From Ectocarpus siliculosus (taxonomy: Eukaryota; Sar; Phaeophyceae; Ectocarpales; Ectocarpaceae): a stretch of 64,000 bases of DNA. Both the position numbers and the translations under genes were made by a program. Shown piece by piece: positions 20,333 to 58,897 of the stretch (its first letter is position 1; each line of letters starts with the position of its first letter). Under the pieces are notes generated by a model that made no database searches, was not told the DNA's origin, and saw nothing but the letters and a program-made list of their open reading frames with translations. The stretch is taken from contig FN649745.1 in the NCBI GenBank assembly GCA_000310025.1, positions 1,086,884-1,150,883 of the forward strand, written 5' to 3'.

Positions 20333-20450
20333 TTTCTCGTGTTCTTGATTTCCGTCGTAGATCTCGCAGATCCAGAAAGTATTCCTCGCTTCCAGATCTG
20401 GTCACGAGTCCCGAATCTTCGTTTCCTCGAACTTGACCTCGAACGATGTG

Positions 20451-21667: not shown

Positions 21668-22160
21668 ATGCAGCACCCGCCCGTTCCTGCGTCTCTTCCG
21701 CAGCATCAACTCAACGAGGTGCAGCGGGAGTACGGAGCCGGCGGTGGACTCGGAGTACAACAGCAGCATGGTCAACAGCAGTCATGCGGAGGTGTTCCCG
21801 TACAGCAGTCGTTCCAGCAGCAGTGGAGGCACGGCGGGTTTGGCAGAGGGTCTGCGTTTCACCAGCAGCAGCCAGGCGTGGTGTACGGCAGCGATCGTGG
21901 TGGATTTCAGCAGCCGCAGCAGCAGCGATCGCCACAGCCGCAGCGGAACGGAGGGTTTGCCACATTTTCTTTGTTGCATCAGCAGCAGTGTGGCGGTGAG
22001 TTTGCCGGTGAGAACGAGGGATATTCTCCTCGCGGGTCGTTTGGCGCCACGCAGCAAGAGTGTCGGTATGTCATGAGTGCACACCACCAGTCGCCGAGTC
22101 AGCAGCCAGCAGCGTCACCTGTGCCTTCTTCAACAGTGACAGCAACTGCGGTGGTGGGGA
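21668..22160 (+). CDS. Gln/Gly-rich ORF, partial, adjacent to the copia LTR
   Basis: An open frame from the ATG at 21668 encodes a Q/G/H-rich, prion-like low-complexity peptide (QQQHGQQQSC, SFQQQWRHGGFGRGS, GYSPRGSFGATQQEC). Unlike the GCN repeats to its right, this part is irregular enough to look coding. It starts only 37 bp from the copia LTR and has an in-frame stop just upstream, so the element may have separated it from its 5' exons or promoter. After about 22160 it runs into trinucleotide repeats where the frame cannot be judged. Confidence 0.35.
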
Positions 22161-23860: not shown

Positions 23861-23869
23861 ACGACCGCA

Positions 23870-25560
23870 CCTTGTTACAGCCAAGTGGGAGAACATGTGA
23901 AACGTTTACGACTTTGTTCGGTTTTGTGAGCAGGCATGGACGTTTTAGCTTCGCCATTTAGCTTCGTGTTTATTTTTTTCCGTTCTGTTTTTCCCTTGCA
24001 AGCGCACCGTGCACTTTGATGCAGAAAACACGTGTGTGCCACGGCGTGTGCGTAATTTGTTTTTCGTACTTGGTTTCATGATAACTAGGGTTAAGGATTG
24101 GCCCCCCGCCCCCAATGGGGCTGTGGGCCAACGTCCAGGACCGATGGTGGTGAGTGTCCGCGAGGACGGAAAGAAGAAGAAGAAGGGGAGAGGATTTGTA
24201 AGGGCGGGAAGAAGGGACGGTGTTGGGAGAGGCAAGGAAGTGATGAAGAATTTCGGCACTCGACGAGCGCGCGGTCCCGTCGGGGGTGAAAGGAACATGT
24301 CAGTCCGTAGTCTTGTCTATCGGAATCGAAAAGCCGAAAAATCGAGGTATACATTATGTACACAACGACGGAGAAGGCCGACGAGGAAGGTACGAAGAGA
24401 GGAAATTGCACCCCACGTTCGAACTCGGGGTGAAAACCCCCGCAAGGATGGAGTGCGAAGGGAACAAAAAAAAAACGGAGACGTCGACGTTTGTTTGCGT
24501 CGTGGAGCGATCCTTCTGTATATCGCAGGTACTCACCAACGCAAGACGGGGAGGTAAAATACCCATCGTGAAAGTCAAAGCGCAGGTCATAGCTGCATAT
24601 GACTCATGCGCGGAGAAGTTACCACACGGAGACTTACCACCAAGAAGTTTGAAGGCCGGCTGAGAAGGTTTGAAGACACAAACACTTACGCGGCGACGAT
24701 GGCAAGCGCAACGTCAAAACTTCACAAGAAGAAAAGTGCATACAAAAAAAGAAAAGGCCGGATGGAGACCTATGGCTCTCTCTCTCAGAATGAAGGGATT
24801 CCCACAATTTCCAACAGGTAGTCCACAAGTATCGAGGAGGACGTCGGAACGGTTTTTAATGTGGAGACAACAGCAACAACAAAAACGATGCAGGTCGACC
24901 CGTCCTGCGTCGTTCAGTGTAAAATGATAAATGCAAAAGATGTACTGCGTAAAGATCCAGCGGTCTTTTTCGGCAGTGGCAAAGAAATATGCGACCACAT
25001 GCCGCGAAAAAAAAAAAAGTTGAGCGGGATACTCTATTCCCCACCCAGCGCCGAAATACGTCGTGCCCGTCTATATAGCTTTGTTGGGGATCATTGGGCC
25101 AGTGGGAAAGAGAGGCCAGCCATGACGGACATGATGACAGAAGTCGCAGCTGACACTCACCGCCAGCGTTCGACTTACCCTTCTCCTTCGATGTCTTCCT
25201 CCGCCCCTCCTGTCCTGTTCCGCCCACGGACATATCCGAAATGTCGCTATCCTCCAACAGAGAAACTGCTGTTTTTGCAGAGTGCGCAACGGATGGAAGG
25301 AATGTACGCTGCAGGTGTAAACATGTGTAAACAAACATGTACAGCCAGGAACTCAACGAAGGGACGCATTCAGTATCAAGCTACATACACCCCATGTGCG
25401 GTACCCACTCGGACACGAGTTGATCCTTCTACTGCTGCTCTAGCGAACGGCGACGGCCCTTAACATGTGTGCACGCGTCACGCTCCCGTCTGCTGTACAT
25501 AGTCTAGACTACAAGTAAGTGTGGATTCCCCTTGACCTCGCGGCAACCGTTCGATCTAGG
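23870..25560. other. Intergenic, no confident gene
   Basis: Short ORFs only. On the minus strand, 25160-25250 reads as the end of an Arg/Lys/Glu-rich exon with the donor-like GGGTAAGTCGAACGCTGGCG. A related sequence recurs at 25590-25690, so both belong to one repeat family. Confidence 0.4.
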
Positions 25561-30785: not shown

Positions 30786-31499
30786 CTACCCTTCTCCACT
30801 GAGGTACCTTCCAAGCGACGGCGGCCCTACTCCAAAGTATTTTGATGTCGAGTTACCATAGAAGCAAGAGTGACAGTTCGTCAAAATGCCAGCGACGGAG
30901 TACTGCTTCCCCAGCCCACACGAGCTCAACGCGACCTGCTGCTTCTTGGCGTAATCAACATAAGGCCATAACGCCACGACCTTACCGACACCCCACTCAA
31001 CTGTCACTCTGCAAGCGCTCATATCAGTGTTGGAAGCCTGCATCTCGGGCGTGAGCACACCCTTGAACGGGGCCATCAACCACGGCGATATCTGGTAGGC
31101 TGGGTCTCCGTAAATATAGTACGGAGTGCCTGCGTCATCGTTGAACCACTGCTGCATAGACTGCAGCAGGGCACTCTCGCCCAGCAGAACGACGTCATGG
31201 CGACGCCCTAGCATGGGCCCCCACAGCTGCCGTAAAATACCATCAGGAGTGTCTACTGCTTGATACTTCAAGGCATGCTTACGTTTCCAGCCGTTGTACC
31301 AGAGCCTCTGCATGCGCCACAGGCGAGCAATCGCACGGACAGTTCCGTCTATAAATCCCCAACAGCGGTCTAGGGGGGAACCCTTGTCTTGAATGGCTTC
31401 ACAGAACATATCAATCTTAGGCAGGATCGCTTCGTGTTGCAACTGGTCAACTAGATGCCCCCAACGATCGTAAATGCACTCGATAGTAGAGGGAATCCA
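30786..31499 (-). pseudogene. Transposase exon 2, catalytic part
   Basis: Continues the frame from the target site (IPSTIECIYDRWGHLVDQL) into the DDE domain: RCWGFIDGTVRAIARLWR, GPMLGRRHDVVLL, GDPAYQISPWLMAPFKG and VEWGVGKVVALWPYVD. All three catalytic acidic residues are visible. Confidence 0.8.
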
Positions 31500-32402
31500 C
31501 GTGTAGTTGAAATGACGTGAAAGATTGACATTTCAGGAAGTTTTGACGTGAAGAGGTTGCGCCGCTTTTTTGGGGGCAAACTCTGACGGCGAAATTTTTG
31601 TGAGGAAGCGTCAAAATTAAATTTCACCCAAACTTAAACCGACGCGAAAAGATTGACGCTTCAAACATCGCCAGACTGTGGCTCACACACGCTTGCTCTG
31701 CTGCGGTCTGCTGTGCGCGGTCAGCAGCGAACACATTGGCCATGCCTATACTGATTGCTCCAAGCGGTCCTGCACCCACGCGTCTCGGCAGTTCTCACGG
31801 CGGCCAAGTGGCCAGACGCGCGTGTTCGGCGCGCGCGTTCGGTAGATGCACCGTCGCGATTGCGCACGGGCTTTCAGCAGCAAAAAGGGGCATAGGCAGG
31901 GGAGTGATTGGGGGAGTCTCGCCCTCGAAGGGAGCACATGGAGAGGAGGGAGGGAGGGTACACGGACTTTGCCAGTCAGTAGGTGCATTTCGCCCGCCCC
32001 CTCACGGGGTTCGGTGCTCTGCTGCCGCAGTGACATCGGTATATACACAGCAGTGCAGCGAGCAGCTGCCTTACTCATCAGCAACGAACGGCAGTTTGAC
32101 GCCTGGGAAGTCGCAGTTTGACGCCTGGGAAAAGTCGCCGCGGCAAAGGAGGGAAGGTCGGCGGGATGAGGCGAAGGGGTACACCTAGTCTCCTGGGAGC
32201 CTGGGGGTGTGAGTCTTCGCTTCGGAATGTCGACCCTGGGTGGCAGCCCGAACCAACCTTGAACTCTACCTCCACCATTTTTTTTTTTTCACCTCTCACG
32301 TGTCAACGGGCACACGCGGTGCGAATTTTTTCCCGTCAAAACCCTCAACCGTCACTTTATGTTGGCGTCAATCCTCAAAGGTCAAAATTCCGCGTCAATC
32401 CA
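31494..32402. mobile_element. About 0.9-kb non-autonomous insertion in the transposase gene, 6-bp TSD
   Basis: Flanked by direct AATCCA copies at 31494-31499 and 32397-32402. The insert (31500-32396) has imperfect, AT-rich terminal inverted repeats that share TGAC and GATTGAC blocks (left ATGACGTGAAAGATTGAC, right reverse complement ATTTTGACCTTTGAGG). It contains a 22-24 bp duplication of GCAGTTTGACGCCTGGGAA near 32090-32135 and no transposase. Superfamily is not assigned. Confidence 0.65.
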
Positions 32403-43297: not shown

Positions 43298-43483
43298 CTA
43301 AGCGCAATCAATGCGCTGTGCATGGGGTATGCCTACAAGACGGTCCAGTCGAGCACGAACCTTTTTTCGAACAAGTTCCAGGTCGTTCCGAACACCAACC
43401 GTGTCCAGGTGGTTTTCCCCAAGGTTCTTCGTATGGATTAAGAGGGCTCTTTCCAGGAGTGGACTGGCCTCCGTGTACTTCTC
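43298..43483 (-). CDS. Terminal TPR exon with stop codon
   Basis: 61 codons plus stop. Acceptor GTCCACAG|GAG. Reads [20 protein letters not shown], then [18 protein letters not shown] and a basic tail ending in RIDCA. The longer, non-modular end fits a C-terminal cap. It is the only stop-bearing TPR exon seen, supporting a single gene. Confidence 0.75.
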   Translation of the reverse strand, partial: EKYTEASPLLERALLIHTKNLGENHLDTVGVRNDLELVRKKVRARLDRLVGIPHAQRIDCA

Positions 43484-46400
43484 CTGTGGACGGTTGAGAT
43501 GCAGGATCGAGCACATTAACCCAGTGCGCAAACCGCATGAATATTCGCGAAGATTTTGTGAAAAACCCGATAGATCCGTGCAAGGGTGTGTTTAGTAAAG
43601 TATTTTACTCATCCGTTGAGTATTTCCTTGAGCAAGTATTTCAAAAATACTCAACAAATACTTTGAGTAAGTGTTTCAAAAATACTCACCAATACTCAGG
43701 AGATTGATTCAGTGTAAGTATTTCAGAACTACTCACGCGTACTCAGGCATTGCAGTAAGTACGTCATAATGTACAACTTCTCGATGTAGGTCTTGCCCCG
43801 TGGGGTTCGGAGGGGCATGCAATAGTTTTCCACAGAGAAGAGAGGAGTCCTCGCGTGCCCCTTCCTGCCGGAAACCGTCTGGTGCTTTTAAGTTCTTGAC
43901 AGCGGACACCGTTTCCGCCGTCACAGAGTACACTTCGGAGTTCACCGTGCTGTAAGCAACAGCCGGTTCTCTGACGCGCACCGTTCGATCTGGATCACCT
44001 CAGCATCTGCTGCTGCTGCTGCTGCTGATGCTGCTTACGCAGCCTCCAAGGGTGCTGCATTGGCGGGTGCCTCTGCATTTGCAGCAGCTGCGTCACATAG
44101 GAACTTCGCCGCTACCTCTACCTGATGAGTATTGAGTATCGCTTTAGTGGCGAGCCGCGAGTAATCGTGTGCATCAGCAGAGTGTGTGGCGGTGGTGCAC
44201 CCAGGGCCCGCAGAGAATGCCCCGTACTACTGACGTCATCATTAGTTACATTTTAGTCTAGGGTGGAATTCACCGGTACGCGTAGAGTACTGCTTAACCA
44301 TAGTCGAAGACTGAGTAAGTACTTCAGGGATATCATTACTGAGGAGGATGAGTAATATATTTCAAAAATACTCATGTGTACTCAACAGTTTGAGTAAGTA
44401 TTTCGAAAACACTCATCAACACTCGGCAGGTTGAGTAAGTATTTTAAAATTACTCGTGCGTACTCAGATACTTGAGTATTTTACTCATTCGTTGAGTATT
44501 TCCTTGAGTAAGTATTTCAAAAATACTCATCTGTACTCGGATTTTTGAGTAAGTATTTCAAAAATACTCATCCGTACTCGGATGTTTTAGTAAGGATTTC
44601 AAAAATACTCATCGATACTCAGGAGATTGAGTAAGTATTTCAAAACTACTCATGCGTACTCAGCTACTCGAGTATATTTACTGAACCTTGAGTCAATCCT
44701 TGAGTAAGTACTTCAAAATACTCATCCGTATACTCAAGCGTTTTAGTAACTATTTCAAAACTACTCAGCCGTTTTCACAAACCGAGTTTGAGTATACTTG
44801 CTCAAAATACTCTGAGCAGGGCGTTTAGTAATACTTTACTTAACACACCCTTGGATCCATGCACCAGGTACGTAGTACACACAGGCCGTGGGTTGCGGCC
44901 GCATGCGGAAGCTCAGAGCACAGAAACCTTTTGTCTATCGTTTGACACCGTGTTCTAACATTGACTCATCCTTGGCAATCTACCTGGGATACAGTCGTGC
45001 ACAACGGGGTAGAGTTACAGTTCAGTCAAGGTGGGATCAATAACTGCAGGCCCGGCACATTTTCTCGTATGGCTCTCGCGTAGGGTATGCGCCTGGTCGT
45101 AGTGACTCGACCTCAGCACATTCGCCGTGCATTCCAAGCAGTGGGCTATAATGAGGGAGCGACCAATACGACTCACCGCAATGTAAGGACTTCATGAGAT
45201 TGCCTGAAAAAATCGAATGGCTCTTGCTCAACAACCCCACCCGGGTTTTGAGGGGTGTTGGCGCATTGGGGTGTTCAGAACCCATGATAATTTCGAACAT
45301 CGCTTGTAGGCACCGCGCATAGAGTGGCTCAGGTTCAGTTTTACTTGCCCAGGTATGCAGTCCTTCAAAGCATGTCAGATTTGGATGAATAGCAAAATAG
45401 GGTTTCCATGAGAGGTCCTGGAAAATGTAAATGGCACCCACCTGCTTGATCAGCAACACCGCCCGGTTGTTCAGCCACGCGGCAAGATTTGGGTGCTCTA
45501 GACCAAGCGCTTTCTCTCCAATAGCGATAGCTCTCACGTACAATGGTTCTGCTTCGCCGAGCTTGCCCTGCAACGTGAATGGACAACGGGATGGGCGTTT
45601 GTGCAAGGTGTGAATAGCTCAACGCCGAGAAAATATTGCTCGACAACCCCACTCGGGTGCTGAGCTGCGTTGCGAGAAAATGGTTGTCGGGGCCAAACGT
45701 CTTCTCCCCAATCGCACTAAATAGCTCGCAGATAGGGAGGGCACGCCTCTTGGAATTTGCCTTGTGTTGCAAGAAAATGATGATGTCAACGATGGGTCCA
45801 ACAAGAACGAAAAACGATCACCATCACAATGGACCCTACGATTTTCCGGAAAATTCCTATGACTCTCACCTGATTCCGTAACAACGTCGCCCGGTTGTTC
45901 AAAACTATGGCAATGTTTGGGTGCTCCCGCCCCAACGAGTTCTCCCAGATGTCCTGCGTCCTCTTGTACAGCGGTTCCGCCTCGTCGTACTTGCCCTGTC
46001 AATGAATCAGAGCGTTAGTATAACGGAGTGGTCAATAATAAACGCAAATTCTTCACCGGCCAAATGTGGATCCTACACTTTCTCACATTTGGATTTTCCG
46101 GGCGCACGGCTTCATGAGATATCCTGGAAACTTCGAATGGCTTTCACCTGCTTTTAAAACATCCCCAGCCGGTTATTAAGCGTCTGGACCACATTGGGAT
46201 GCTCCAGACCTAAAACCTTGTCTCGTATGCATTGTGACCGCGCATAGAGTGACTTGGCGTCAGCATATATGCCTTGCATCCCACCCAGCAGTGAGAGTCT
46301 ATGAGTGAGCGGTCCACCATGAACTAAGACGATTCACCCCTAAACATGGCTTTCAAGAGAACTCCTGGAACGTTCGAATGACTTTCACCTGCTTGTACAA

Positions 46401-49400
46401 CAACGCCGCCAGGTTGTTCAGCCACGCGGCAAGATTTGGGTGCTCTGGACCCAGTGTTTTCTCTCCAACTGCGATAGCTCTCACGTACAATGGTTCCGCC
46501 TCGCCGAAGTTGCCCTACAAACGTGAGCGGACAACAGGATGAGCGTGTGTTGAAGGTTTGAATGGCTCAACGCGGAGAAATATTGCTCAACAGCCCCACC
46601 CGGTTTCGAGATTCGTCGCGAGAAATGGGTGTCCCTACGATGTTCCAGGAAATTCCCATGGGACCTCACCTGATTCCACAACATCGTCGCCCGGTTGTTC
46701 AAAATTATGGCAATATTTGGATGCTCCCGCCCCAACGATTTTTCCAGGATCTCCTGTGTCCTCTTGTACAGCACTTCCGCCTCTTCGTATTTCCCCTGTC
46801 AATGTATCAGAGAGTTGGTGTAACGGACTGGAACGTTATCACTGATAGCCAGCCAGCGGATGAGCAGAGGCTTGGCCTCCTCATACTTGCCCTTGAACGT
46901 GACGGTGATGGAAAGAACGAAAATCATTTGGTAACACTGTGAATACGCAGAAATCGTACACATCAACCCCGCCCGGTAGTTGAGCCGTGCGGAAAGAGTT
47001 GGGTGGTCAGGCGTCACAGTTTGTTCTCCAATCTCAATAGCTTGAGGATACAGAGGATGCACCTCGGCATACTTGCTCTGGGAGGTGAACGAAAAGCGTC
47101 ATGCCAGTGTGGCCAAGGCGAGAACATCTCAATACCCCCGGCCAGTGATGAAGCGACTGGGCCACGTCGGTGTGCTCCTGACACAGCGTCTTCTCTCATA
47201 CTGACTGTGGCCGTTCATAAAAAGTGGCTCGGCATCGTGGTACATACCCTGTGCAATGCAACATGGGTTCGGTCAGCCAGCGGTTCACTAAGATCCGACG
47301 TGCATCACCACGAATTTGAACCCTACTGTACCAACTTTCCACGAAACATCCTTGGACTCTCACCTGAGCTCTCAACATCTCCGCCCGGTTGTTGAGCGAC
47401 TGGGCCACATCGGGGTGCTCCGGACCCACGGCTTTCTCTCGAATGGCCTGTGACCGCTCATAAAGTAGCACGGCCTCAGCATGCTTGCCCTGGCATACGG
47501 TCATACCTATCTGTCAGAGTTGTATTAATACATGTAGTTCTTTCCACGTCCTCTGTCATATTGACTGCGACCGTTCACAATGTGGCCCGGCGTCGTCGTG
47601 CTTAAAAACCTGTAGGTATAAGGGAGTGGTCCACCGTACCGCGAACTCTTCACCGACCAAATGTGGACCCCAGAAAAATTGACATACGGCATCGGTTTTC
47701 CGCATGCAGGGTTTTCTCTTCTACAAGCAGGCTGTGATTGCTCACCGAGTAGTTTCATCATGAAGTAGCGACTGACGAGTCACCAACAAGCGTGAACTCT
47801 CGGAACATTGCCGGAAAAACTCGGAAATATTCATGGCCCTCACCTGCGCTCGCAACAGCCCCGCCCAGCTGTTGATGCTTGTAGCGACGTCCGGGTGGTC
47901 AGGACCGCAAACTCTCTCACGGATAGCCAGCGACCGAACGTACAGAGGCTCGGCCTCCTCATATTTGCCCTGGAATGTGACGGGAGAAGAAATAGCTATT
48001 TGATGGCGCTGTACGTGCTCGGCAATCACAGCCCCCGCCCGGTTGTTGCGCCGTGTCGCAGGGGCCGGGTGGTCAGGGCCTTACATGTTCTCTCCAATTT
48101 CGATATCTTGAAGATACAGAGGATGCGCCTGGGCATACATGCCCTGGGAGGGGAACGAAACGCTTCATGACATTATGGTGAAGGCAAGAAATCTCATTGT
48201 GGAAGTACACACGCTCAACAACCGCGCCCAGTTGTTGAGCGACTGCGCCATATCGGGGTGCTCCGGACCAAGCACCTTCTCTCGCATGGGATGTGCCCGC
48301 TCATAAGTTGGCTCGGCCTCAGCGTAGTTGCCCAGGCACAAAGTCGCACACAACCCGTCAAAGTTGTATTCATAGTTCAATGAACGCTTCTCTCATATAT
48401 TGACCATAGCCGTTTGTAAAGTGGCTCGGTCTTGTCGTACAATTATCAGATAGTTGATGTAAGGGAGTTGGGGTTTGAGAAAATTAATCACCGACCGAAT
48501 GTGGACCCACATCTGGGTCCGGATGCAGGGTGTTGTCTCCAATAAGCAACATGTGACTGCTCATTGAGAAGCTTCGCTATAATCTAACGATTCACCAACA
48601 AGCGTGCCAAATTACTGGCAAAGTCGAAAATTATGATGGCCCTCACCTGACTATCCAACAACGACGCCAGGCTATCGAGGGCAGTAGCGACGGACGGGTG
48701 GTGAGGACCTAGGGCCTTCTCGCAGATAGCCAGCGACCGAACGTACAGAGGCTCGGATTCCTCATATTTGCCCTGGAATGTGACGGGAACAGAAAGAGGA
48801 CGCTGATTGCAAATAAACTCCAGCCAACAACCCCGACCGGTTCGTGAGTCGTGTGCAAGGTCTGGGTTGTCCACGCACCGCAATCGACGGTGCCGCACCC
48901 CCCCCCCCCCACAATTTCGGCCAAAAACTGTCAAAATGTTGTCGTATGCCCCGGGGTGGTTGTTTTTTCTAAAACGAACAAACCCCCCATTTTCAACGCA
49001 CGCCCGGGGTTAAGTGTACTTTTCAGCCTTTTGGCTAAGATCCCTCCAGTATATTTTCTTTCGGACGAATTTCATGAATATTTCGACCATGACAACCAAG
49101 GGTGCACAAAAAAAAGTCTTCCTGCACACCTACCCGACACCCTCCCCCCCCCCCGGGAGAAGGACGATTTTGTTTTTCGTGGTACATTTTTGTCGAGGCT
49201 TTGTTGGCTTTCTCGCTCTCCATTGCGTGTGCTTGCGTGTGGTGTTCACGGCACGCAGAAGTGCACAAGGACCTTGTTACCAGTTTTTAGTTTTTTTTAT
49301 AGGTTTGAGATAATTAATCAATTAATGGTGTGTACATTCGGCGCTGGGAGATTGCTACTTTGTATAAATAGCTGTGATGGGCTATACTAAAATAGTTGTA

Positions 49401-52400
49401 GTTGGTTTTCACGTCTTGGGAGTACAGTGCTTGGGGACACCCCCTCAAGCTAGAAGGAACTTAGAATTCTCAATGCTTCTGCGACAAGTCCGCGACATTT
49501 GACCTTAGGCGAATATGGCGCAATAACACACGACACACAAGAACCAAAGGACACACAAAATATCATGCGTCAAAACGTCAGCAATCAATACAAGCATACT
49601 CAAGCCGGCAACATACCGAAGAGGGGCTGCCGATGAGCCTACGGCGATGGCGTCACCTTCACCACGCGCGTTCATACTTATTCACTCCCCCAGGCCCCTC
49701 CACCTCCCTCAACAAGACTAAACCGCTGTTACTTCGAGCGCTTTCGCCCCGAGCACCTTCGCCCTCCGTTCTCGTCCTCCTCACCCCCACCCCACCCTCC
49801 ACCTTCTCAAGCTCGCCCTCAGGGGCTACGTGGGCTGTTACTACCCCCGTTCATGGAATGTGCCCCCTTAATATATAGGACTTAGCATGGGAATTATTAT
49901 ATAGGAATTTGCATGGCGTCGGGGGGGGGGGACCGGCCTTCCTACCCCCCACNNNNNNNNNNNNNNNNNNNNNNNNNNNNNNNNNNNNNNNNNNNNNNNN
50001 NNNNNNNNNNNNNNNNNNNNNNNNNNNNNNNNNNNNNNNNNNNNNNNNNNNNCCGCCCCCCCCCCGGAGAGGTCTGAAAAACGTTTCGTTGGGCAGGTGT
50101 CGGAAAATGTTTTTCGTGCACCCTTGTGACAACGCGCCAGAGTTGACGCCACAAGAGTACCACCAGTATATGGTATCTCACCGTGGTTGGGACGATACCA
50201 GTCATCCGCGGAACGCTTGCTCGAAATGTTTGTCCATTGCAGGAACATAGAGTGTATACATGTATGGCAGTTGTGCTGTCCCCCCCCACCCCGGGGTACA
50301 CGGAAAAAGACCCCTTGCCCCCCCCATCAGTGTTTGCCATCGGGATTGGGTTTTCGTAGCTTGGCAACGACGTTATAAAACGAGCAAATTCACTTTGTGA
50401 GCTCGGCAACCAGAATACCGTTTTTTTTTTTACCTCTGTTTTTTTCCGGTAACCATAATGGTGGTCGAGTAGATCATGTTGTGAGGGGTCGAGAACCCTC
50501 ACTCCGCGCAAGGGGGATGATAGCACCACGTTGTGTTAAATGGTCAAGCATCCTCGAGGCAGTTACACAGTGCTCATAGCTGTCTATGGCAGTGAAAGCA
50601 CCAGAAAATATATTAAGTAATACGCAGCTGTCATCCGTACGCAAGAAAGTAAGCACAAGATGCCGAACACCCTTAGCAGGATGCAGCGCACCCTTCATGC
50701 GACTCGCCGAATACCTCACGGCGCTTCGCGCTTGGTGATGTGAGAGCCTGGTCCGGTGAGAACCCGGCGTGCTCCGTCCCGGCTTTGTAGGGATGCGAGG
50801 TAAAGGGTCTAACGACTACGGCATGCACGACTATGAGTACCCCCCCCTTGTTAAAATTTCGCCCCGGGGGAACACAATTTCAGACGCAAAGTTAATCTCC
50901 TCCCCGGGGGTACGGCACCGTCGATTTAGGTATTCTCCCAATCTCAATAGCTTGAGGGTACAGAAGTTCCGCCTCGGCATACTTGTCCTGGAAGGTGAAA
51001 GAAAAACATTCTGCCAGTACGGTCAAGGCGAGAAGAACTCATTGCGGATGCGCACACGTTCAACAACCCCGACTGAGGGACTGGGCCACATCGGGCTGCT
51101 CTTGCTGTAGCGCCTTCTCTCATTCTGACTGTGGCCGTTCATGGTGGTTCGGCATTGTCGTAGAACCGTTATTGGGCTCTCACCTGAGCTTGCAACAACC
51201 CCGCCCGGTTGATAAGCGACCGGGCCACATCGGCGTGCTCCGGACCCAGGGCCTTCTCTCGAATGGCCAGTGATCGTTCAAAAAGTGGCTCGGCCTCCTC
51301 ATACTTGCCCTGGTATGTGATCGGAGAGGAAAGAGCGAAATTCACTTGGTGACGCTGTGTGTGCCAAGAAACCATAGCCAACAACCCTTCCGGATTGGTG
51401 AGCCCGTGTGGCAAAAGCTGGGTGGTCAGGGCCCAACTATGGTTTCTCCAACCTCAATAGATCCTTGGTACAGAGGACCCGCCTCGGGATATGTGCCCTG
51501 GAAGGGGAACGAACAGCGTCACACCAGTGTGGTCAACGAGAGCAAAGCATGCTGCGGACGGACACACGCAACCCCGCCATGTTGTTGAGCGACTGCGCCA
51601 CGTCGGCGTGCTCCTGACCTAGCGCGTGCTCTCATATTTACTGCGACCTTCACAACATGCCTCGGCCTTGTCGTGCTTGCTCTGTTCATGAATTAGAGAG
51701 CTTATGTCAGGTCGTGGTCCACCGAAAATGGAATTTCTCCACCGACCAAATATGGACCCTAGAATGCTCACATGCAGGTTCGTCGGAGGCAGTAGCCTGG
51801 GACTGGACATAAGTGTAGCTTCGCCACCAACAAACGAGATCCTACCAAAATTGTTGGAAAATTCGAAAAATCTGATGTCGCTCACCTGACTCTGTAATAG
51901 TCCAGCCCGGTTGTTGAGGCCTGTAGCGACGGCCGGGTGGTCAGGACCGTAAACCTTCTCACGGATAGCCAGCGACCGGACGTACAGAGGCGCTGCCTCC
52001 TCATACTTGCCCTGGAATGTGACGGGAAAGGAAAGAGCGAGACTCATTTGGTGAAGCTGTATGCGCTCAGGAACTAGCCAATAACCCCGCCGGGTTGGTG
52101 AGCCATGTGGCAATAGCGGGGTGTTCAAGGCCCAACGGTGGCGTCTCCAATCTCAATAGCTCGAACATATGGAGTGTCCGCTTCAACATACTTGCCCTAG
52201 AAGAGAAAAAAAATGCGTTTTGGCAGTGTGGTCAAGGAGTGAACTTATCAATGCGGACGGGCACACGCCCATCACCTTGACGCGGTTATTGAGCGACCAG
52301 GCCACATCGAGGTGCTCTTGCGCTATTTACCTCATTTTCGCGTATTGACTCTGATAGTTCAGGACGTGGCTCGGCCTCGTCCTACCAATCCTGTGAGTGG

Positions 52401-55400
52401 TCACCAGAGAGTTGTTGTAATGGTGTGGTGCACCAAAAAAACATTTCTTCACCGACCAAATGTGGACCCCAGAAATGCTCACATCTAGGATCTCCGGGTC
52501 CAGGGCCTTCTATCCTAACTCACCATGTGCACTACTCATAGACATGAAGTAACGATTCACCAACAAGTGTGGACCCTACGATTGGTTCTACAGGGTAAAA
52601 CATTTCTGATGGCTCTCACCTGACACTTCAACAGCCCCGCCCAGTTGTTGAGGCCTACAGCGACGTCCGGATGGTCGGGACCTACACCTTTCTCACGGAT
52701 AGACAGCGACCGAACGCACAGATCCGTAGCCTCCTTGTACATGCCCTGGAATATGACCGGAAAGGAAAGAGCGAGACACGTTTCACATTTGATTGTGACC
52801 GTTTAAAACGTGGCTCGGCCTCGTCATGCTTGCGCATATAATGATCACCAGAGAGTTGGAATAATGGGATGGTCCACCACAAACGAAAATTCTTCAACGA
52901 CCACTTGTGGACCCTAGAATCACTCACATCTGGATTGTCCGGGCGCAGGGCCTTCTCTGCCATACGCAACCTGTGGTTGCTCATAGAGAACATTTGGTAT
53001 CAAAAAGCGATTCGCCAAAAAGTGTAGACCCTATGTAAAACAAATGCTGGAATATTCGAAAATTATGTTGACTCTCGCCTGCCTCTTCAATACCCCTGCC
53101 CAGTTGTTGAGGCCAATAGCGACGGCCGGGTGGTCAGGACCGTACAACTTCTCATACGTAGCCAGCGACCGAACGCACAGAGCCTTGGCCTCGTCGTACT
53201 TGGCCTGGAATGTGACGGCAAAGGGAAGAGCTAGATTGGTGTGGTGATGCCATATGTTCTCAGGAATCCGAGCCCACAACTCCGCTGGGTTGGTGAGGCG
53301 TGTGGCGAGAGCTGGGTGGCCAGTGCCCAACGATGGTTTCTTCAATCCCGACAGCTTGAAGGTACAGAGGATCCGCCTCGGTATACATTCCCTTGTTTCC
53401 AGAAAGTCTCCACCGAGACCACACGAAACCCTGTGTATAGCGAAATACTCCCCAACGTGCTTTGCAACCGAAAGACGAGGAGAGGTACAAGCACGCTCTC
53501 CGAGGAAGCACTGCTGTGAATGCATGTGGTTAATTGGGTCTGGATCGGCTCGTGCGCTGAAGGAGGGGCACGTGAAAGGAGCGGTTTGATGCGGCACGCC
53601 CAAATCATGAAGGGCGAGCAGCACGGTACAGCACAGGTGTGACAGATTGGTACCACCAGTAACGAAAATGGTGCAAGTACATACGGATATAACCGCATCG
53701 ACACCCAACTTCAACTAACACGCGAGATTCAATATTTTTGCGACGTACACAGCATCATGGTGCATTTTGTGTGCCTGTCTACGCTAGTGTGGGGCGACAG
53801 ACAGGAGGGAGACGATAACGACAGGCGGTTGATGGGAGCACAATAGTCGGCCCGAGAGAGTCAGGTCGCTCACCGCAGGGTGATCGCCGTGATGGTTTGC
53901 TACTGCGAGCTACCAGTTCAAGCTTGCGCTCAAAATATGGTGAGTTACGCGTACACACGTGGGAGACACTCTCAGCAACAAACAATATCTCGAAAATGGT
54001 CCTTACGATCAAGTATACTGTGTCGCACACAGGATATTGGCAGCATGCCGATTATGTTGCTCATCCGCAACGGGTTGCAAAACGTTTTAGGATCAAATGG
54101 TATTTCGACGAACGCCATCACTCACGATTTCAGTATTCCCCTAAGCAACAGCATGGGGAAAATGCTTTGACCCTATTTTCATGAACCAAGTATCACACAC
54201 GGTAACGAATGTCGCAGTCTCCAGGCCGAGATCCCCAGGGCCATACGCCACCAAGCTTGTGTGGTGGTCGAACTGAATTGCTTTTGCCTTACCTTTTCGC
54301 TCAGAATATGGGCGAGTCTTGCCCTGACTGCGTTTGCGCTGACCAACGCCCGTCTCGAGTCCTTGCTATCGTCATCCTCAAACTCCCGTGCTTTGTGCTC
54401 GGCATCCCTAAGTTTCTGGAAGGTGAGTGTTGTAAGGACCACAAGCGGCAAGCATGTGTCATAAGACTGCACACAGAGTGAATAATTATGTTTGGTTCGT
54501 TGAGGCTCGTCGGGTTCTTCGAGTCGAAATACGTCAGCTGCGTGGGCTGTTGGGCTTGGGAAACGTCACAACTGGCAGTTGGCAGCCAGCTGTGGGCTGG
54601 TCCTGCTGCCTGCTCTATTTTCATCCTGTATCACCCTGTGTGTGCTCTACTGAGCCCACTCCACAGGGATCACTTGCATGTTATGGATATACTACTCAAG
54701 AGGTGCTCCAACGCAGAAAAATTGTGCAAACACAAGGAAAGACCTCTTAACTATATCTCTCACAGCTACCTCTCGGAAGCTCGTCTCCGCCAGATCGTAC
54801 TGCCCAGCATCGAGCTGTAGGTCCTGTAGAAGGTACCCGGTTCCACGCCAGTTCTCCCCAGCCAGGCGCATCATCTCCTTCGTAACCTCGGGGGACAGAT
54901 TCTTGATCAGGTGTTCACCGTCTATTTCGGTAGTTACGTTCAGCTCCCTCGCCCACTCGTATACGGCGTGCTGGCCGCCTTTCAATGCGAAGAACTCGCG
55001 GAGGTGCAGCTGAATCTCACACAAGTGCTCCTTCACGACGGGGTTCAGCTTCACATCCCGATACCCGCTAGGCATCCAGTCGGAGTTGAAGCCGTTTTTT
55101 ACACGCAGAACATTTTGCTAAATGAGCCGGTTCACAAGGGGAGCAGAAAACAGGTTGTCATGAATTGTATTTTGTTGACTGTTGTCAAGGATCATCCCCT
55201 ACTGGTCTTGGGGAAGTTCACTCCTTGGGTACAACTTGTTGATAATAATAGCCCGGGTGTAGCACCCCCGCCTCCCTGAAGCCCTTTTCCTTTCGTTCCC
55301 GGGGAGGGGAGTATACGGTATGTATGGGTGGGGTGGAGGATGATAGGACTTGGTAGATCAAGCAAGAAGGAAGTAAACAAGCCATTTCCCGTGTTTGGCT

Positions 55401-58400
55401 TAAAAAGCGTTCGCACGATGAACAGACACGGGTCCGCCGGCCGTGACTATGGTATCCATGAGCGCCAGGATTTGAGCAGGATCGCAAAGAAAGGTCACTT
55501 TGTGACGGGCATAGACGGGGATCCGCAACCAATCGAAATTTGTCCGGTTGACAAAGAAACATACACAAAAAATGACCGAGGGCAGTCCGGATGGGTTAGC
55601 CGGCGGCGTGAATTCAATATATGGTGGAATGTCTTTGTTGATCGCCCCACATCATGCCTGCAGCACGTCGAATACCGCAAACAAACGGCGAACCGCTAAA
55701 GAAACCAAAACCCAGAAATACAGGCGGAAAAGGCAGTCGCCCAGAAGACGAAAGCAGCACGAAAACGTAGGGGCCTGGGCTAGATACCTAAAGACAGGAT
55801 TGGGTCTGCGTAACTATTGAAACGCCGTGGAGACGAGCGCGATTACACGTCTTGTCGCCAGAGGCCGTGCTGGACGCAAAGAAGCGGCTCGCTCGTTGTT
55901 CGGGTTAACGTCTCATTTTGTCGGCGCGGCAGTGCTTTGTCAGGACTTGACGCGAAAAGGAAAAGGAGAGCCGCGAAGGCGACAAGCCGGGTGTACATGA
56001 TGCCTGCAATCTTGAGTGTGTGTGGAAGCAGGAAGTCAACACGTCAACGCGTCTGAGCTGTACGGTCACCATGGTTGGCAGTGCTGCGTATGCAATCCGT
56101 GAACACAGCAGTACTACAGAAATCATGGTTGGCAGTCGTCATCACACTACAGTTTACAGTTGCTGGCTGCAATCATCTGTAATTGGAACATTGGAAAGGA
56201 CCGGTATATCCAGGCACGTGCGTGCGGTCCACAGTCTGGAAGGAGACCAAAACATGTGCAACCTTGTGCAATCTTTAACGGCGCAGCGCTTAACGGCGCA
56301 ATTGCCCTGCATGTATGTGGAGTGTCTACTGCAGGAAGTCGTCCTGGGTACATTTGTGTTCCGGCGCGTGTGTGTTATGATATGTTGTGCGTCCAGTATT
56401 GCCGACCGTGTGTACGGCAGTGATATGTATGATGCCTGGACGTTTTCCCGTAAATTCCGACTTGGGTGTGGTCCAACAGCTGCAGTTGTCTGGAAGGATA
56501 CCAAGAAGGTGCACAAGTTAACTTGTTCAACTTTTTGTACTCACTGCTTGGTGCACATTCCCGAGGGGGTTGGAGTGGTTGCGAGACCAGCTGCCTTGTG
56601 AGCACTGCCTTGTCACACGCATTGTGAGCACTGCCCACGAATTGGTCTCGGGAGCTGTATCCAACGCATTCGATTGCGGAAAAACGGCATGTATGTCTTA
56701 GAAAACGGCGCAGCGAAACGGGTTGCCCTGCATGTATGTGTCGTCGTGTGGGGTGCGGCGTATTTGATGACCTGTGGGGGTATAAAAGATAAGAGAGAGT
56801 GTGCGTATCGGTTGTTCGCACGGGGGAGATCTACGATTAAGACATATAACACCGGACGTCTTCTCAAAAACTGACACAGCTGTCGCACCAAACTTGCAGG
56901 AGGGGCGGATGGGGCCAGGAGGGACACCTTTTCCAAACCACAGAAACAATTGTCAATGAAATCTCGAGAAGCATCGACCGAAGAAAAGAAAATTGCTTTT
57001 AGAGAAGGAACCGGAGAATGACCACTCTAAAACCAGGTGAAAACAGGAGGGCGGGGTCGGATTTTCGGGGACCGATTTATTGGGACGGAAAAGTGGGGTC
57101 AATTTCGAATATCGGTGTGAGAATTTCGGCAACAGACACCGAATCCCTATCGGGCTTCAGAATATGGAGATTGGGTATTGCTCTCATCCATGGGAGGTGA
57201 GAAACAATGTTGCGTAAGTGGCTTTGAGGATAACACCATTCATTTTTTTCGATATGGTCTCAGGACGCTTCGAGGTAGAGCCTCCCATGACAGGTTTCCA
57301 TTCAAAAAAGTGGGGGTGATTGGTCTAATCATGTTTTTGAGCTGCTGACGAGCGCACACAAGACACCTCACGGCGAGCTTGTGTCGCACAGGCGCCCAAA
57401 TTGTTGAGCATACCAACACTCGCAAGGAGCTCGAGCACACCGAGGAGTCTAACCTCGTCTACCCACGCTTAACCTCCGGGCTGGTTCATCAGCATTCCGT
57501 GTGCCCGCTACACCACCAGGGGTTGCTTTTGATGTCACTGAGGATGTGCAGCCCTACCGAGGCCACGTTGGCAACATCGATTTCAATGCGTGTCTGGGAA
57601 ATACCCCGCAGCAATCAGTATTCTATTTCATGGCCTATGCGCTCAGCATCATCGCGTATAGCGGCTCCAATAAATAGTGGTGGCGGCTTCGTTGGGAGCA
57701 ACTACAGCAATAAATGTTGGAGGTACGCATGGGGCACTAAACTCAGCTGCGCTAGGGGCGCATTGGGTCGATCTCCAACCATGCATCTATGCATTGGTTC
57801 AGCGGAAGTCTCGGGTGCCATCCTTCGTTACTTTATTTCTCGGAATGTGAGACCCTTTCCCGCAGGTATCTTTGGAGGTTGGGAATCGATTGACAACGCC
57901 TGCTGCGATACTTCTCATCAACGTGGAGAACGAGCAGTCGCTCTTGGAGGATCGGAGTTGTTTGGTGCCGCTAGTCATATGGGGGGATCGGGAAAAAGAA
58001 AGGTCCGGTCTCGCCAATAGCTGGGAGTACGATTGCTGGGGAAAACCTCACCACGACCAAATAAAACAACATTATGGTTAACAACGTTAGGATTGCAGAG
58101 CAAAACAAACCTGAAGGAAAAAAAAAACAACGATCCTACTTGTGCGTAAAACGAAGCAAGCACAACAAGACCCTTGTGATTTTCCAAAGTTGCCTCGAGC
58201 ATCGATTTCGCAACAAACAGCACATGAACGAGTACGGCATGATTCCACAATTGCGGGTTGACGGGAAATCTGCAGTCCTACTCGCCTTGGGCAATGCCAT
58301 GATGATAGCCAAGTACGCCTCTTCCAGGGCCTCCGGTGTGGCGCAGATCACAGTCACCCTAGCCATGTCAGCAACCTTTCGGACGCCCCCATCACAGAAC

Positions 58401-58897
58401 CTGCTGGCCTTCCGTCGCGTACTTTCCCGAGACTTGACGTCCACGCATTGAACCTCGTACTTGCTCGAGTCGCGTGCAACCTTCGCAACCAGCTCGTCCA
58501 AACGCGGCTTTGCAAGCTCAGCCTCTGCAAGATAGAAATGTAGCTGTCGTTCAAGTTTCTCGTCCTCGCCGTAGTCCTGTACATCCAAGATCTTGGGCTG
58601 GAAGAGCCCCTTCGCCCGAACCGGGGCGATGCTGCGAAGGCAATGAAGTCCTCCTGTCTTGTTGAGCTCGTAGTACAAATCGTCGTACTCTGCTTCAAAC
58701 TGCTTTACCGTCTGTACTTGAAGGTACTTGAGAATATTCACTTTGGCATCTAGACTAATAGGTGATGTTTCACGTTCACGTGAGGTCTTCAGCTCGGCCT
58801 CCAGACGGAGGAGCTCGTTGATGTCGACGGCCATCTGCGGCACAGCACAAGCAATGGAACCCACACGGGGTTGGGCGGCGTAAGCCGCCACGCTCAT
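43298..58897 (-). CDS. RelA/SpoT-like domain - TPR repeat protein, one repeat per exon
   Basis: Gene-level model. Exons in order: 58897-58286, 55117-54770, 54415-54293, then TPR exons at 53204, 52745, 52011, 51309, 48772, 47969, 47489, 46795, 46514, 45995 and 45567 (upper ends), and the terminal exon 43483-43298. All introns are phase 0, so exons can be added, lost or reordered without frame damage. Full joining gives about 884 residues: a nucleotidyltransferase-like domain (residues about 100-320), a linker, eleven 42-residue kinesin-light-chain-type TPRs and a C-terminal TPR cap. TPRs bind proteins or peptides. The role of the RelA/SpoT-like fold here is unknown. The true start may lie in an upstream exon, because an acceptor-like AG follows a stop near 58925. 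It may instead be a pseudogene or more than one gene. Confidence 0.65.
43582..44852. mobile_element. hAT-like foldback/MITE element in the last intron of the TPR gene
   Basis: 1271 bp with terminal inverted repeats beginning AAGGGTGTGTT and AGTAAAGTATT-like sequence. An 8-bp flanking match with one difference (ATCCGTGC at 43574-43581, ATCCATGC at 44855-44862) suggests hAT. Most of the interior is an array of GAGTAAGTATTTCAAAAAT and TACTCATCCGTACTC units, themselves inverted repeats. No transposase is present. A (CTG)n tract lies at about 44005-44035. Confidence 0.65.
45222..45347 (-). pseudogene. Dead TPR exon, both splice sites lost
   Basis: [20 protein letters not shown] ... [19 protein letters not shown]. 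The acceptor reads CCTG and the GT of the donor is deleted (CAAGAGCCATT against CAGGTGAGAGCC elsewhere). Confidence 0.6.
45442..45567 (-). CDS. TPR exon 11
   Basis: 42 codons, [20 protein letters not shown] ... [20 protein letters not shown]. Acceptor GTTGCAG, donor CAG|GTGGGTG. The following intron to the terminal exon is about 2 kb and holds the hAT-like element. Confidence 0.8.
45636..45765 (-). pseudogene. Dead TPR exon, frameshifted
   Basis: [14 protein letters not shown], stop, then [20 protein letters not shown] in another frame. Neither splice site is intact. Confidence 0.55.
45870..45995 (-). CDS. TPR exon 10
   Basis: 42 codons, [20 protein letters not shown] ... [18 protein letters not shown]. 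Acceptor TTGACAG, donor CAG|GTGAGAG. Near-identical in design to TPR exon 8. Confidence 0.8.
46148..46273 (-). pseudogene. Dead TPR exon with in-frame stop near its end
   Basis: [20 protein letters not shown] ... [23 protein letters not shown], with donor GTGAAAG intact. The acceptor is AA instead of AG. 126 bp long. Confidence 0.65.
46389..46514 (-). CDS. TPR exon 9
   Basis: 42 codons, [20 protein letters not shown] ... [18 protein letters not shown]. Acceptor TTTGTAG, donor CAG|GTGAAAG. Paralogue of TPR exon 11. Confidence 0.8.
46575..46640 (-). pseudogene. TPR exon remnant, 3' half
   Basis: [17 protein letters not shown]-like peptide in two frames; equals the second half of the dead exon at 45636-45765, as expected from the block duplication. 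Confidence 0.5.
46670..46795 (-). CDS. TPR exon 8
   Basis: 42 codons, [20 protein letters not shown] ... [18 protein letters not shown]. Acceptor TTGACAG|GGG, donor CAG|GTGAGG. Paralogue of TPR exon 10 through the block duplication. Confidence 0.8.
46830..46891 (-). pseudogene. Half TPR exon fused into an intron
   Basis: [18 protein letters not shown] after acceptor TTCAAG, then directly the intron that precedes TPR exon 8. The second half is gone, so a recombination breakpoint lies inside the exon. Confidence 0.6.
46952..47077 (-). pseudogene. TPR exon with open frame but no donor, AIEIG lineage
   Basis: [20 protein letters not shown] ... [18 protein letters not shown], open over 42 codons with acceptor CTCCCAG, but the donor region reads ATGTGTACG. 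It preserves the in-frame sequence that the other lineage members have lost. Confidence 0.6.
47124..47248 (-). pseudogene. Dead TPR exon, YERSQ lineage
   Basis: [18 protein letters not shown], then a frame change and [18 protein letters not shown]. The acceptor TTGCACAG is good; no donor. Confidence 0.55.
47364..47489 (-). CDS. TPR exon 7
   Basis: 42 codons, [20 protein letters not shown] ... [20 protein letters not shown]. Acceptor TATGCCAG, donor CAG|GTGAGAG. The only live member of the HAEA..YERSQ lineage; the others are decayed. Confidence 0.8.
47545..47610 (-). pseudogene. TPR exon remnant, YERSQ lineage
   Basis: [16 protein letters not shown], then a stop. Acceptor CCTACAG is present; the 3' half is missing. 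Confidence 0.45.
47844..47969 (-). CDS. TPR exon 6
   Basis: 42 codons, [20 protein letters not shown] ... [20 protein letters not shown]. Acceptor CATTCCAG, donor CAG|GTGAGGG. Its intron ends resemble those of TPR exons 3 and 5, marking them as one lineage. Confidence 0.8.
48018..48143 (-). pseudogene. Dead TPR exon, AIEIG lineage, in-frame stop
   Basis: [20 protein letters not shown], then TAA, then [18 protein letters not shown] in the same frame. The acceptor CTCCCAG is intact. Confidence 0.65.
48207..48332 (-). pseudogene. Recently dead TPR exon, splice sites lost, frame open
   Basis: 42 open codons, [20 protein letters not shown] ... [18 protein letters not shown]. The acceptor AG is changed (CCTG|GGC) and the CAG|GTGAG donor is replaced by AGCGTGTGT. 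Probably silenced by splice-site loss before frame decay. Confidence 0.6.
48395..48440 (-). pseudogene. TPR exon remnant, YERSQ lineage
   Basis: Short stretch reading [17 protein letters not shown], without acceptor or second half. Confidence 0.4.
48647..48772 (-). CDS. TPR exon 5
   Basis: 42 codons, [20 protein letters not shown] ... [18 protein letters not shown]. Acceptor CATTCCAG, donor CAG|GTGAGGG. First live exon after the 2-kb insertion at 48882-50926. Confidence 0.8.
48826..48881 (-). pseudogene. Dead TPR exon, 3' part, split by the 2-kb insertion
   Basis: [12 protein letters not shown] and, after a frameshift, LTNRSGLLA, the second half of the AIEIG-lineage exon on the other side of the insertion. 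No donor. Confidence 0.55.
49013..49060 (+). ncRNA. U2 snRNA 5'-end-like fragment
   Basis: CTTTTCAGCCTTTTGGCTAAGATC closely follows the 5' end of U2 snRNA (stem-loop I, then the GGCUAAGAUC stretch), followed by AGTATATTTTCTT, which resembles the next U2 bases. The branch-site pairing box GUAGUA is altered and the rest of U2 is absent, so it is a fragment or pseudogene, not a working U2. Confidence 0.45.
49163..49935. repeat. Dispersed repeat family A, copy 2
   Basis: Matches 450-1277 in the same orientation. Lies inside the TIR element at 48882-50926, just left of the assembly gap. Confidence 0.8.
49953..50052. other. Assembly gap (100 N)
   Basis: A run of exactly 100 N, probably a scaffold gap of unknown true size, between C-rich sequences. 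Confidence 0.95.
50455..50840. repeat. Dispersed repeat family B, copy 2
   Basis: Matches 33-430 in the same orientation with a few percent difference. It ends about 85 bp before the right terminal inverted repeat of the TIR element. Confidence 0.85.
50927..50987 (-). pseudogene. Dead TPR exon, 5' part, split by the 2-kb insertion
   Basis: [18 protein letters not shown] after acceptor CTTCCAG. The exon is cut by the TIR element at 48882-50926; its second part is at 48826-48881. Confidence 0.6.
51050..51150 (-). pseudogene. Dead TPR exon, YERSQ lineage
   Basis: FYDNAEPP, a stop, then [15 protein letters not shown] in another frame. Shorter than 126 bp by several deletions. Confidence 0.5.
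51184..51309 (-). CDS. TPR exon 4
   Basis: 42 codons, [20 protein letters not shown] ... [18 protein letters not shown]. Acceptor CATACCAG, donor CAG|GTGAGAG. It looks like a mosaic: the first half follows the VRSLAIRE type and the second half the EH-DVAxSL type, as expected after recombination within exons. Confidence 0.8.
51371..51497 (-). pseudogene. Dead TPR exon, AIEIG lineage
   Basis: [20 protein letters not shown], then the shared extra G (GTTGGGCCCTGA). [10 protein letters not shown] and LTNPEGLLA follow in the other frames. The acceptor CTTCCAG is good; there is no donor. Confidence 0.65.
51563..51681 (-). pseudogene. Dead TPR exon, YERSQ lineage
   Basis: [19 protein letters not shown], then a stop. 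[19 protein letters not shown] follows in another frame. The donor is absent. Confidence 0.55.
51886..52011 (-). CDS. TPR exon 3
   Basis: 42 codons, [20 protein letters not shown] ... [20 protein letters not shown]. Acceptor CATTCCAG, donor CAG|GTGAGCG. Close to the array consensus. Confidence 0.8.
52071..52196 (-). pseudogene. Dead TPR exon, AIEIG lineage
   Basis: [20 protein letters not shown], then the extra G in GTTGGGCCTTGA causes a stop. The remainder ([19 protein letters not shown]) is in the +1 frame. The acceptor TCTTCTAG is intact; the donor is lost. Confidence 0.65.
52270..52390 (-). pseudogene. Dead TPR exon, YERSQ lineage
   Basis: [13 protein letters not shown]-like start and [13 protein letters not shown]-like end in different frames. 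Both splice sites are degraded. Confidence 0.5.
52620..52745 (-). CDS. TPR exon 2
   Basis: 42 codons, [15 protein letters not shown] ... [20 protein letters not shown] ... KCQ. Acceptor ATTCCAG, donor CAG|GTGAGAG. It shares the CVRSL variant with TPR exon 1, its nearest neighbour, which suggests local duplication. Confidence 0.75.
52786..52985 (-). pseudogene. Dead TPR exon remnants, YERSQ lineage
   Basis: Fragments [16 protein letters not shown] (52786-52842) and [11 protein letters not shown] (about 52925-52960) are parts of the TPR consensus, separated by non-homologous sequence. No intact splice sites. Confidence 0.5.
53079..53204 (-). CDS. TPR exon 1 (GC donor)
   Basis: 42 codons, [14 protein letters not shown] ... 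[13 protein letters not shown] ... VLKRQ. Acceptor ATTCCAG|GCC is good; the donor is CAG|GCGAGAG, so it is live only if GC-AG splicing is used. It opens with Ala instead of the usual Gly. Confidence 0.55.
53266..53391 (-). pseudogene. Dead TPR exon, AIEIG lineage
   Basis: Reads [20 protein letters not shown], then VGHW after an extra base at GTTGGGC. The second half ([16 protein letters not shown]) is in the +1 frame. Acceptor AACAAG is present; the donor is lost. Confidence 0.65.
53392..54292 (-). other. Intron between the linker exon and the TPR array
   Basis: No intact exon is seen. Scattered short ORFs only. Confidence 0.45.
54293..54415 (-). CDS. Linker exon, 41 codons
   Basis: Phase 0 at both ends, acceptor ACCTTCCAG|AAA and donor AAG|GTAAGG. 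Encodes a charged helix ([20 protein letters not shown], then [15 protein letters not shown]). It lies between the RelA/SpoT-like exons and the TPR array and is almost the length of a TPR exon, but it lacks the TPR consensus. Confidence 0.6.
54770..55117 (-). CDS. Exon encoding the second half of the RelA/SpoT-like domain
   Basis: 116 codons, phase 0 at both ends, acceptor CATTTAG|CAA and donor GAG|GTAGCT. Reads [43 protein letters not shown] and [13 protein letters not shown]-x-D-x-x-L followed by EIQ is the second signature of the RelA/SpoT fold. E238 in CEIQ would be the catalytic Glu, while the His of the bacterial GYQSIH-type motif is replaced by Lys (K227). The end ([19 protein letters not shown]) already looks like a TPR helix pair. 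Confidence 0.75.
55118..58285 (-). other. Large intron inside the RelA/SpoT-like domain
   Basis: 3.2 kb between the two halves of the domain. Minus-strand peptides near 57370-57640 (for example [15 protein letters not shown]) faintly resemble ARM/HEAT-type helices but have stops. No confident exon or mobile element is seen. Confidence 0.4.
58286..58897 (-). CDS. Exon encoding the first half of the RelA/SpoT-like domain
   Basis: 204 codons from the Met at 58897. The frame extends a little upstream through [17 protein letters not shown], a hydrophobic stretch that would be a signal-peptide-like start if an upstream exon supplies the Met. Helical region [15 protein letters not shown], then [13 protein letters not shown] (R-x-x-K, as in the substrate-binding start of RelA/SpoT) and [20 protein letters not shown], where D177 and R180 align with the D-x-x-x-R strand that holds the catalytic Asp. 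It ends AAG|GCGAGT, a GC donor, which is the only phase-0 option that joins the next exon. Confidence 0.65.

Follow-up and report, generated by a model that had tools for sequence, protein, structure and literature searches.

On the minus strand of a 64-kb stretch of the Ectocarpus siliculosus genome (the window; positions are counted from its first letter), we identified a predicted gene in which a divergent, remote RelA/SpoT-superfamily domain, recognized by profile comparison, is followed by an array of TPR modules, each carried by a single 126-bp exon (Table 1). By sequence, the gene appears to be one of roughly fifteen such genes in this genome, and we see about an even chance that it belongs to a brown-algal multigene receptor–effector family in which a variable TPR array would control a RelA/SpoT-type nucleotidyltransferase.

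The gene model, read from the sequence, comprises 15 exons and 884 codons with zero internal stops, and its stop and ATG are the end points (43298 and 58897) that an earlier, sequence-only reading of the region had given. The ATG at 58897 is uncertain, as the top database match (P0001, 87% identical) begins at a Met equivalent to 58834. Every predicted exon is a multiple of 3 in length and all junctions are in phase 0, those of the head and terminal exons included; head exon 3 is further matched at 93% by P0046, a predicted protein of another Ectocarpus species. All eleven TPR exons are stop-free, end at a TPR boundary and have AG acceptors, with GT donors in ten and a GC donor in one, matching the eleven one-TPR-per-exon, phase 0-0 modules first described, which we recovered with their predicted splice sites between 53204 and 45442. 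Open AG-126-GT segments are common in the window (93 on the minus strand and 74 on the plus strand), but eleven that match a TPR profile, on one strand and within one 8-kb stretch, are not due to chance; all TPR-profile matches listed for the window lie on the minus strand, from 53391 to 43358. Ten of the exons scored 77–88 bits across the full 42 profile positions, partly by construction because the profile was built from those same ten, and the exon at 48772 gave a partial match. Independently named domains agreed, with Pfam TPR_10 and TPR_12 matching all six TPR-bearing pieces scanned, five of them above at least one curated cut-off. The number of TPR exons is a lower bound because a 100-N assembly gap lies inside the array. 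New relative to the sequence-only reading are this gap, head exon 3, the terminal exon with its degenerate TPR, and twelve decayed TPR copies.

Table 1 Predicted exons and associated features of the head–TPR gene (window coordinates)
Feature	Position	Strand	Description
Head exon 1	58286..58897	minus	612 nt; N-terminal part and first half of RelA/SpoT-like domain; donor CCCAAG|GCGAGT (GC)
Head exon 2	54770..55117	minus	348 nt; second half of RelA/SpoT-like domain
Head exon 3	54293..54415	minus	123 nt; linker helix ahead of TPR array; AG acceptor, GT donor, phase 0
TPR exon 1	53079..53204	minus	126 nt, phase 0-0, GC donor
TPR exon 2	52620..52745	minus	126 nt, phase 0-0
TPR exon 3	51886..52011	minus	126 nt, phase 0-0
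TPR exon 4	51184..51309	minus	126 nt, phase 0-0
TPR exon 5	48647..48772	minus	126 nt, phase 0-0; partial profile match only
TPR exon 6	47844..47969	minus	126 nt, phase 0-0
TPR exon 7	47364..47489	minus	126 nt, phase 0-0
TPR exon 8	46670..46795	minus	126 nt, phase 0-0
TPR exon 9	46389..46514	minus	126 nt, phase 0-0
TPR exon 10	45870..45995	minus	126 nt, phase 0-0
TPR exon 11	45442..45567	minus	126 nt, phase 0-0
Terminal exon	43298..43483	minus	186 nt including stop; degenerate TPR and C-terminal tail
Twelve decayed TPR copies	45220..53391	minus	Profile matches with stops, frameshifts or missing splice sites
Assembly gap, 100 N	49953..50052		Inside TPR array

Searched alone against Pfam, the window head returned only sub-threshold noise (GDSL lipase and YgfZ), and family profiles were therefore used. 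A profile of six heads retrieved Tas1 first (E = 8e-4) and YwaC second (E = 0.012) among five PDB rows, the remaining three being unrelated at E values of 0.33 and worse. Pfam RelA_SpoT matched three of the six heads (best E = 8e-4) and two of ten proteins scanned (P0056, 2.7e-4; P0049, 0.0046), and NCBIfam YjbM matched P0049 (0.0011) among seven proteins scanned, with all of these Pfam and NCBIfam matches falling under curated cut-offs. An alignment of 52 heads (P0052–P0054 left out) was then compared by hhalign with 47 RelA/SpoT domain rows, taken from a 40-genome PF04607 sample because relatives of E. coli RelA were too close for a useful profile, giving a probability of 90%. In the form used for controls, the probability was 86% and the score 43.9; none of 200 column shuffles scored above 25.6, and the reversed alignment reached 14.5. 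The RelA/SpoT-like head that the sequence-only reading had placed ahead of the array is thus upheld as a remote sequence relationship; of the Pfam and HHpred searches it had proposed as a check, Pfam was negative for the window copy and profile–profile comparison was positive (200/200 shuffles beaten). A PADLOC scan of seven proteins gave nothing convincing for the head (a weak PDC-S33 match, E = 0.019, at residues 105–203 of P0041, and TPR-type matches in P0049), and a PF04607 search of the whole genome (189.5 Mb, 492 contigs) found two other genes and none of the RelA-like TPR heads. A chance resemblance to RelA in a lone gene was also considered and is ruled out by the 16 other loci described below and by the shuffle controls.

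In RelA/SpoT enzymes, metal-binding Asp and Glu residues and the Gly-Tyr and EIQ motifs have catalytic roles. Counterparts of all of these are present in the head (D177, Y223, E238 and Q240), and CEIQ is among the motifs that align between heads and RelA/SpoT. Across the 52-row head alignment, in which one or two rows are gapped per column, K155 is conserved in 50/50 ungapped rows, D177 in 48/50 (the exceptions being one E and one N), and Y223, E238, Q240 and H254 in 51/51 each; with distant relatives brought in, 15 columns stay invariant among 20 aligned proteins. The canonical RSH signatures G-R-x-K-S and Y-x-S-x-H were not found in the head, which has VDVKS and GYRDVK: relative to RelA, the G-R before K-S is lost and GYRDVK stands in place of GYxSLH. 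Between the window copy and its paralogues, dN/dS was 0.13–0.29 for exon 2 (14 comparisons) and 0.36–0.61 for exon 1 (5 comparisons), indicating at the sequence level that the head is kept under purifying selection.

The altered G-R and YxSxH positions would also suit a scaffold or regulatory protein, whose head, catalytically dead, would act as a binding module and whose kinesin-light-chain (KLC)-type TPRs would serve ordinary cargo binding or complex assembly rather than immunity. One family member is named 'kinesin light chain-like' in the database, and proteins combining a head with TPR domains also come from environmental and transcriptome data beyond the named brown algae, both in keeping with such a role. 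We nevertheless regard it as rather doubtful, given that a dead domain need not keep D177, Y223, E238, Q240 and H254 as consistently as these heads do, that the family is multicopy (14 other loci with both head exons), and that the TPR cassette is common to NB-ARC genes.

Copies of the head were found elsewhere in the genome. Head exon 2 had 15 other matches (50–83% identity) and head exon 1 matched 15 other loci, several with internal stops (two in C24; one each in C33, C29, C18 and a piece on C458). Together these define sixteen other loci with the head or part of it, of which 14 have both exons, the C24 locus has exon 1 only and the C15 locus an exon 2 fragment. Ten kilobases were examined at 15 of the 16 (all but C15, and at C33 from near exon 2 on only), and each of the 15 had between 4 and 13 intact 126-bp exons on the same strand, with one TPR apiece, making the head-plus-array design a recurrent one. 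This recurrence bears on whether the head and the TPR array are instead two adjoining genes, as the 3.2-kb intron between head exons 1 and 2 might suggest. We consider that very unlikely: order and strand are kept at 15/15 loci examined, phases match between head and TPR exons, TPR-type Pfam domains lie in the same protein as the head in 46 of 54 database relatives (these proteins being predictions), and P0146, listed as an MMETSP transcript product, has both head-like and TPR parts.

The 27 NB-ARC matches in the genome all fall on contigs other than that of the window, in agreement with the initial description of a head other than NB-ARC, and no NACHT match was obtained in Pfam scans of window pieces or ten relatives; an NLR/STAND switch of either kind between effector and repeats was thus not found in the window gene. 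The exons themselves are shared across this divide. Three NB-ARC genes examined (of the 27 matches, 10 kb each) all had the same exon grammar, with 6, 9 and 13 intact exons, and one repeat per exon, symmetric phase and fixed length held for the 11 exons of the window gene and for 181 across 19 loci. Of 651 candidate TPR-exon matches, 150 were scored, such that the following counts are minima: at least 80 lay within 20 kb downstream of NB-ARC on the same strand, at least 51 likewise of a RelA-like head (131/150 in all), and 19 near neither head type. Clusters with neither head in the 20 kb upstream, as read on their own strand, were seen at C5:226-228k, C10:3224-3226k, C43:58-60k, C16:825k and C12:258k, and possibly represent further head types or headless reservoirs. 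Of 153 intact exons in genes with a RelA-like head, 34 had their nearest neighbour within their own gene, 82 in a different gene of this type and 37 in one of the three sampled NB-ARC genes; common descent accounts for these cross-family neighbours as well as exchange does.

TPR substitutions cluster at a few positions, which are also variable in NB-ARC-TPR exons. Overall pN/pS was 0.50 across 32 independent pairs of exons taken from genes with a RelA-like head. At six test positions picked from NB-ARC genes, pN/pS in these pairs was 0.98 (bootstrap 95% interval 0.73–1.25) versus 0.42 elsewhere, a result equalled by 0.08% of random six-position sets; with 43 looser pairs, the values were 0.81 (0.67–1.00) versus 0.39, and 0.58% of random sets. 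Positional evolution of the TPRs is, at the level of these substitutions, relaxed or mildly diversifying at shared positions, short of proven positive selection. The diversification role first suggested for the array is hinted at by the positional variability; pN/pS at the variable positions is about 1 or below and not clearly above.

The array also retains twelve decayed TPR copies, with extended starts at 53391, 52386, 52196, 51682, 51497, 48332, 48143, 47246, 47077, 46891, 46273 and 45348. Self-comparison of the 54.7–43.2-kb segment yielded 44 alignments, a few of which are due to tandem repetition of a 41-bp unit around 44 kb; the longest (915 bp, 69% identity) runs across exons and introns. 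The tandem repeat occupies 44349-44772, with related copies at about 43599-43769, and lies within the last intron of the gene. Among nine decayed B-type exons compared, five, from three genes, have a single +1 insertion in common (window copies 53391, 52196 and 51497; L036 4840; L035 4639), which is missing from five intact exons in the same alignment. The shared insertion and the multi-exon homologous blocks together imply that dead exons were copied as passengers in larger blocks, and we conclude from these sequence comparisons that growth of the array has, at least in part, involved the copying of multi-exon blocks, introns and dead exons included. The duplicated blocks are old (67–86% identity). 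The earlier proposal that exons can be shuffled freely is not supported in that form: phase permits it, but the array shows old block duplications, and for this array the intron-spanning blocks of up to 915 bp and the shared insertion rule out growth by free shuffling of single exons alone. P0046 (97% identical over exon 2) is collinear with the window array, mapping in order to exon 2, exon 3, the 48.3–46.7-kb stretch, 45.6 kb and the end exon, as a partial prediction with some segments in another frame and its middle alignment gapped across introns. Separately, an NB-ARC gene (L052; G000 C27:3070500-3080499) has an array in which a block of two exons, about 740 bp long, occurs six times in succession, which by sequence is a clear case of recent two-exon block amplification.

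Decay on this scale raises the alternative that the window copy is an unexpressed, decaying member that does nothing, within a family that is itself real. Beyond the twelve decayed TPR copies, the gene has two GC donors (after 58286 and after 53079), where GC donors occur in 6 of 181 intact TPR exons, and several relatives have stops inside the head exon 1 match (C24, C33, C29, C18 and the C458 piece). Set against these features, the 15-exon frame is open throughout, the amino-acid sequence of head exon 2 is preserved, and L035 and L036 likewise have decayed copies beside intact ones, leaving a defunct copy unlikely in our judgement.

Other features of the 64-kb window lie outside the gene. 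Long open frames at 15391-20401 (minus) and 7500-8366 (plus) have, by eye, the look of Ty1/copia-type gag-pol (zinc knuckle, integrase and reverse transcriptase/RNase H), and a 248-aa frame at 30786-31532 (minus) that of a PIF/Harbinger-type DDE nuclease. A satellite of about 2.4 kb occupies 10571-12979, with a 22-bp base and higher-order units of 44 and 66 bp, and the 22001-24000 segment is of low complexity (68% GC), with 89- and 102-bp tandem repeats, and reads open in several frames.

Beyond this genome, a search of 5.8 billion proteins returned 54 relatives at E ≤ 1e-3. All relatives with an organism name are brown algae (Ectocarpus species, Hapterophycus, Pylaiella, Laminaria and Sphacelaria); four have EukProt ids only, and P0048 and P0052–P0054 are without a name. 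A second, profile search, in which 8000 candidates of similar length were scored, recovered 108 proteins at E ≤ 10, the most distant being P0139–P0144. With P0140 as query, five others were found, including P0146, which has TPR domains, and a diatom MAG protein, P0148, for which TPR domains are not listed. On these sequence matches, the RelA-like head with TPRs seems to be present outside the brown algae. A literature search of limited coverage found neither a RelA/SpoT-TPR family in brown algae, which may be in print elsewhere, nor a link between such a family and infection.

The order of an enzyme-like head followed by a variable repeat array, the multicopy state and the cassette held in common with NB-ARC-TPR genes together lead us to the receptor–effector reading, and it is from this architecture that we infer a role in immunity. 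The receptor–effectors would probably be intracellular. By sequence, their KLC-type TPRs lie in frame with, and on the same strand as, the head, and their arrays gain repeats at least partly by exon-block duplication and lose them by exon decay; skipping a dead exon would carry no cost to the reading frame. Through its few fast-changing positions, the array could bind a variable ligand, either a molecule from a pathogen or a host protein that it guards, binding might release or localize the head, and the head could then transfer pyrophosphate to a nucleotide or tRNA, resulting in an alarm or a translation stop. Tentatively, and as a possibility that we hold to be improbable as a whole, this would amount to a CapRel-like brown-algal immunity based on a multigene family. 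Its diversifying TPR array, drawn from the exon stock that also supplied the NB-ARC-TPR receptors, would detect infection and itself activate a RelA/SpoT-type enzyme to produce an alarmone or disable tRNA.

If that proposal is correct, these proteins would be eukaryotic single-protein sensor–effectors that operate without an NB-ARC switch. More broadly, the RelA/SpoT-like domain adds a third head type to the candidate receptors with one repeat per exon that are known from brown algae, which evolved multicellularity independently and whose immunity is poorly understood, and the data suggest a single TPR exon stock serving two unrelated signalling heads. A stramenopile candidate receptor with a domain resembling alarmone synthetases also parallels bacterial CapRel and the fungal NLRs that have a RelA_SpoT effector domain. 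Decayed exons, for their part, offer a readable record of array growth, making the exon-shuffling hypothesis directly testable.

Among known systems, the window gene is closest in exon structure to the brown-algal NB-ARC-TPR genes (known here from the available text of PMC11378527 and PMC5772912), with which it shares one TPR per 126-bp phase 0-0 exon (3/3 loci) and the same variable positions, but from which it differs in having a RelA/SpoT-like head in place of NB-ARC. Brown-algal LRR-ROCO genes, as described in the accessible portions of PMC11378527, also have a repeat-per-exon array proposed to vary recognition, built of 72-bp, phase 2 LRR exons with a ROC-COR GTPase, in contrast to the 126-bp, phase 0 TPR exons here. 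In its head, the gene recalls the toxSAS, with Tas1 (PDB 6ox6) being the closest solved relative by profile. These enzymes, CapRel included, are characterized by tRNA pyrophosphorylation or (pp)pApp synthesis. In the text available from PMC9712102 and PMC11559606, CapRel has an N-terminal toxic enzyme and a C-terminal sensor, and toxSAS, including CapRel and Tas1, are bacterial and, unlike the window gene, without a TPR array.

Plastid enzymes and kinesin light chains offer further points of reference. Algal plastid RSH proteins (RSH1 and RSH4) likewise have a RelA/SpoT domain and sometimes TPRs, green-algal RSH4 carrying them at its C terminus (accessible text of PMC6881373), whereas the two PF04607 matches of this genome score far above the cut-off, one of them lying in an open frame that has an HD-like part, and the head–TPR family is divergent and multicopy. 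Kinesin light chain combines KLC-type TPRs and, at its N terminus, a heptad coiled coil through which it binds kinesin heavy chain; the window gene has TPR_10 and TPR_12 matches and one relative bears the database name, but the N-terminal part of the window gene is RelA/SpoT-like. Finally, some fungal NLRs have an N-terminal RelA_SpoT effector domain, and thus, like the window gene, a RelA/SpoT-type domain at the N terminus of a repeat receptor; they carry NACHT with WD40 or unassigned repeats, as far as the available text of PMC4986451 describes them, where the window gene has TPRs and no switch domain was found. By analogy, the logic proposed for the brown-algal family would resemble that of bacterial CapRel and the fungal RelA_SpoT NLRs, minus the NB-ARC/NACHT switch.
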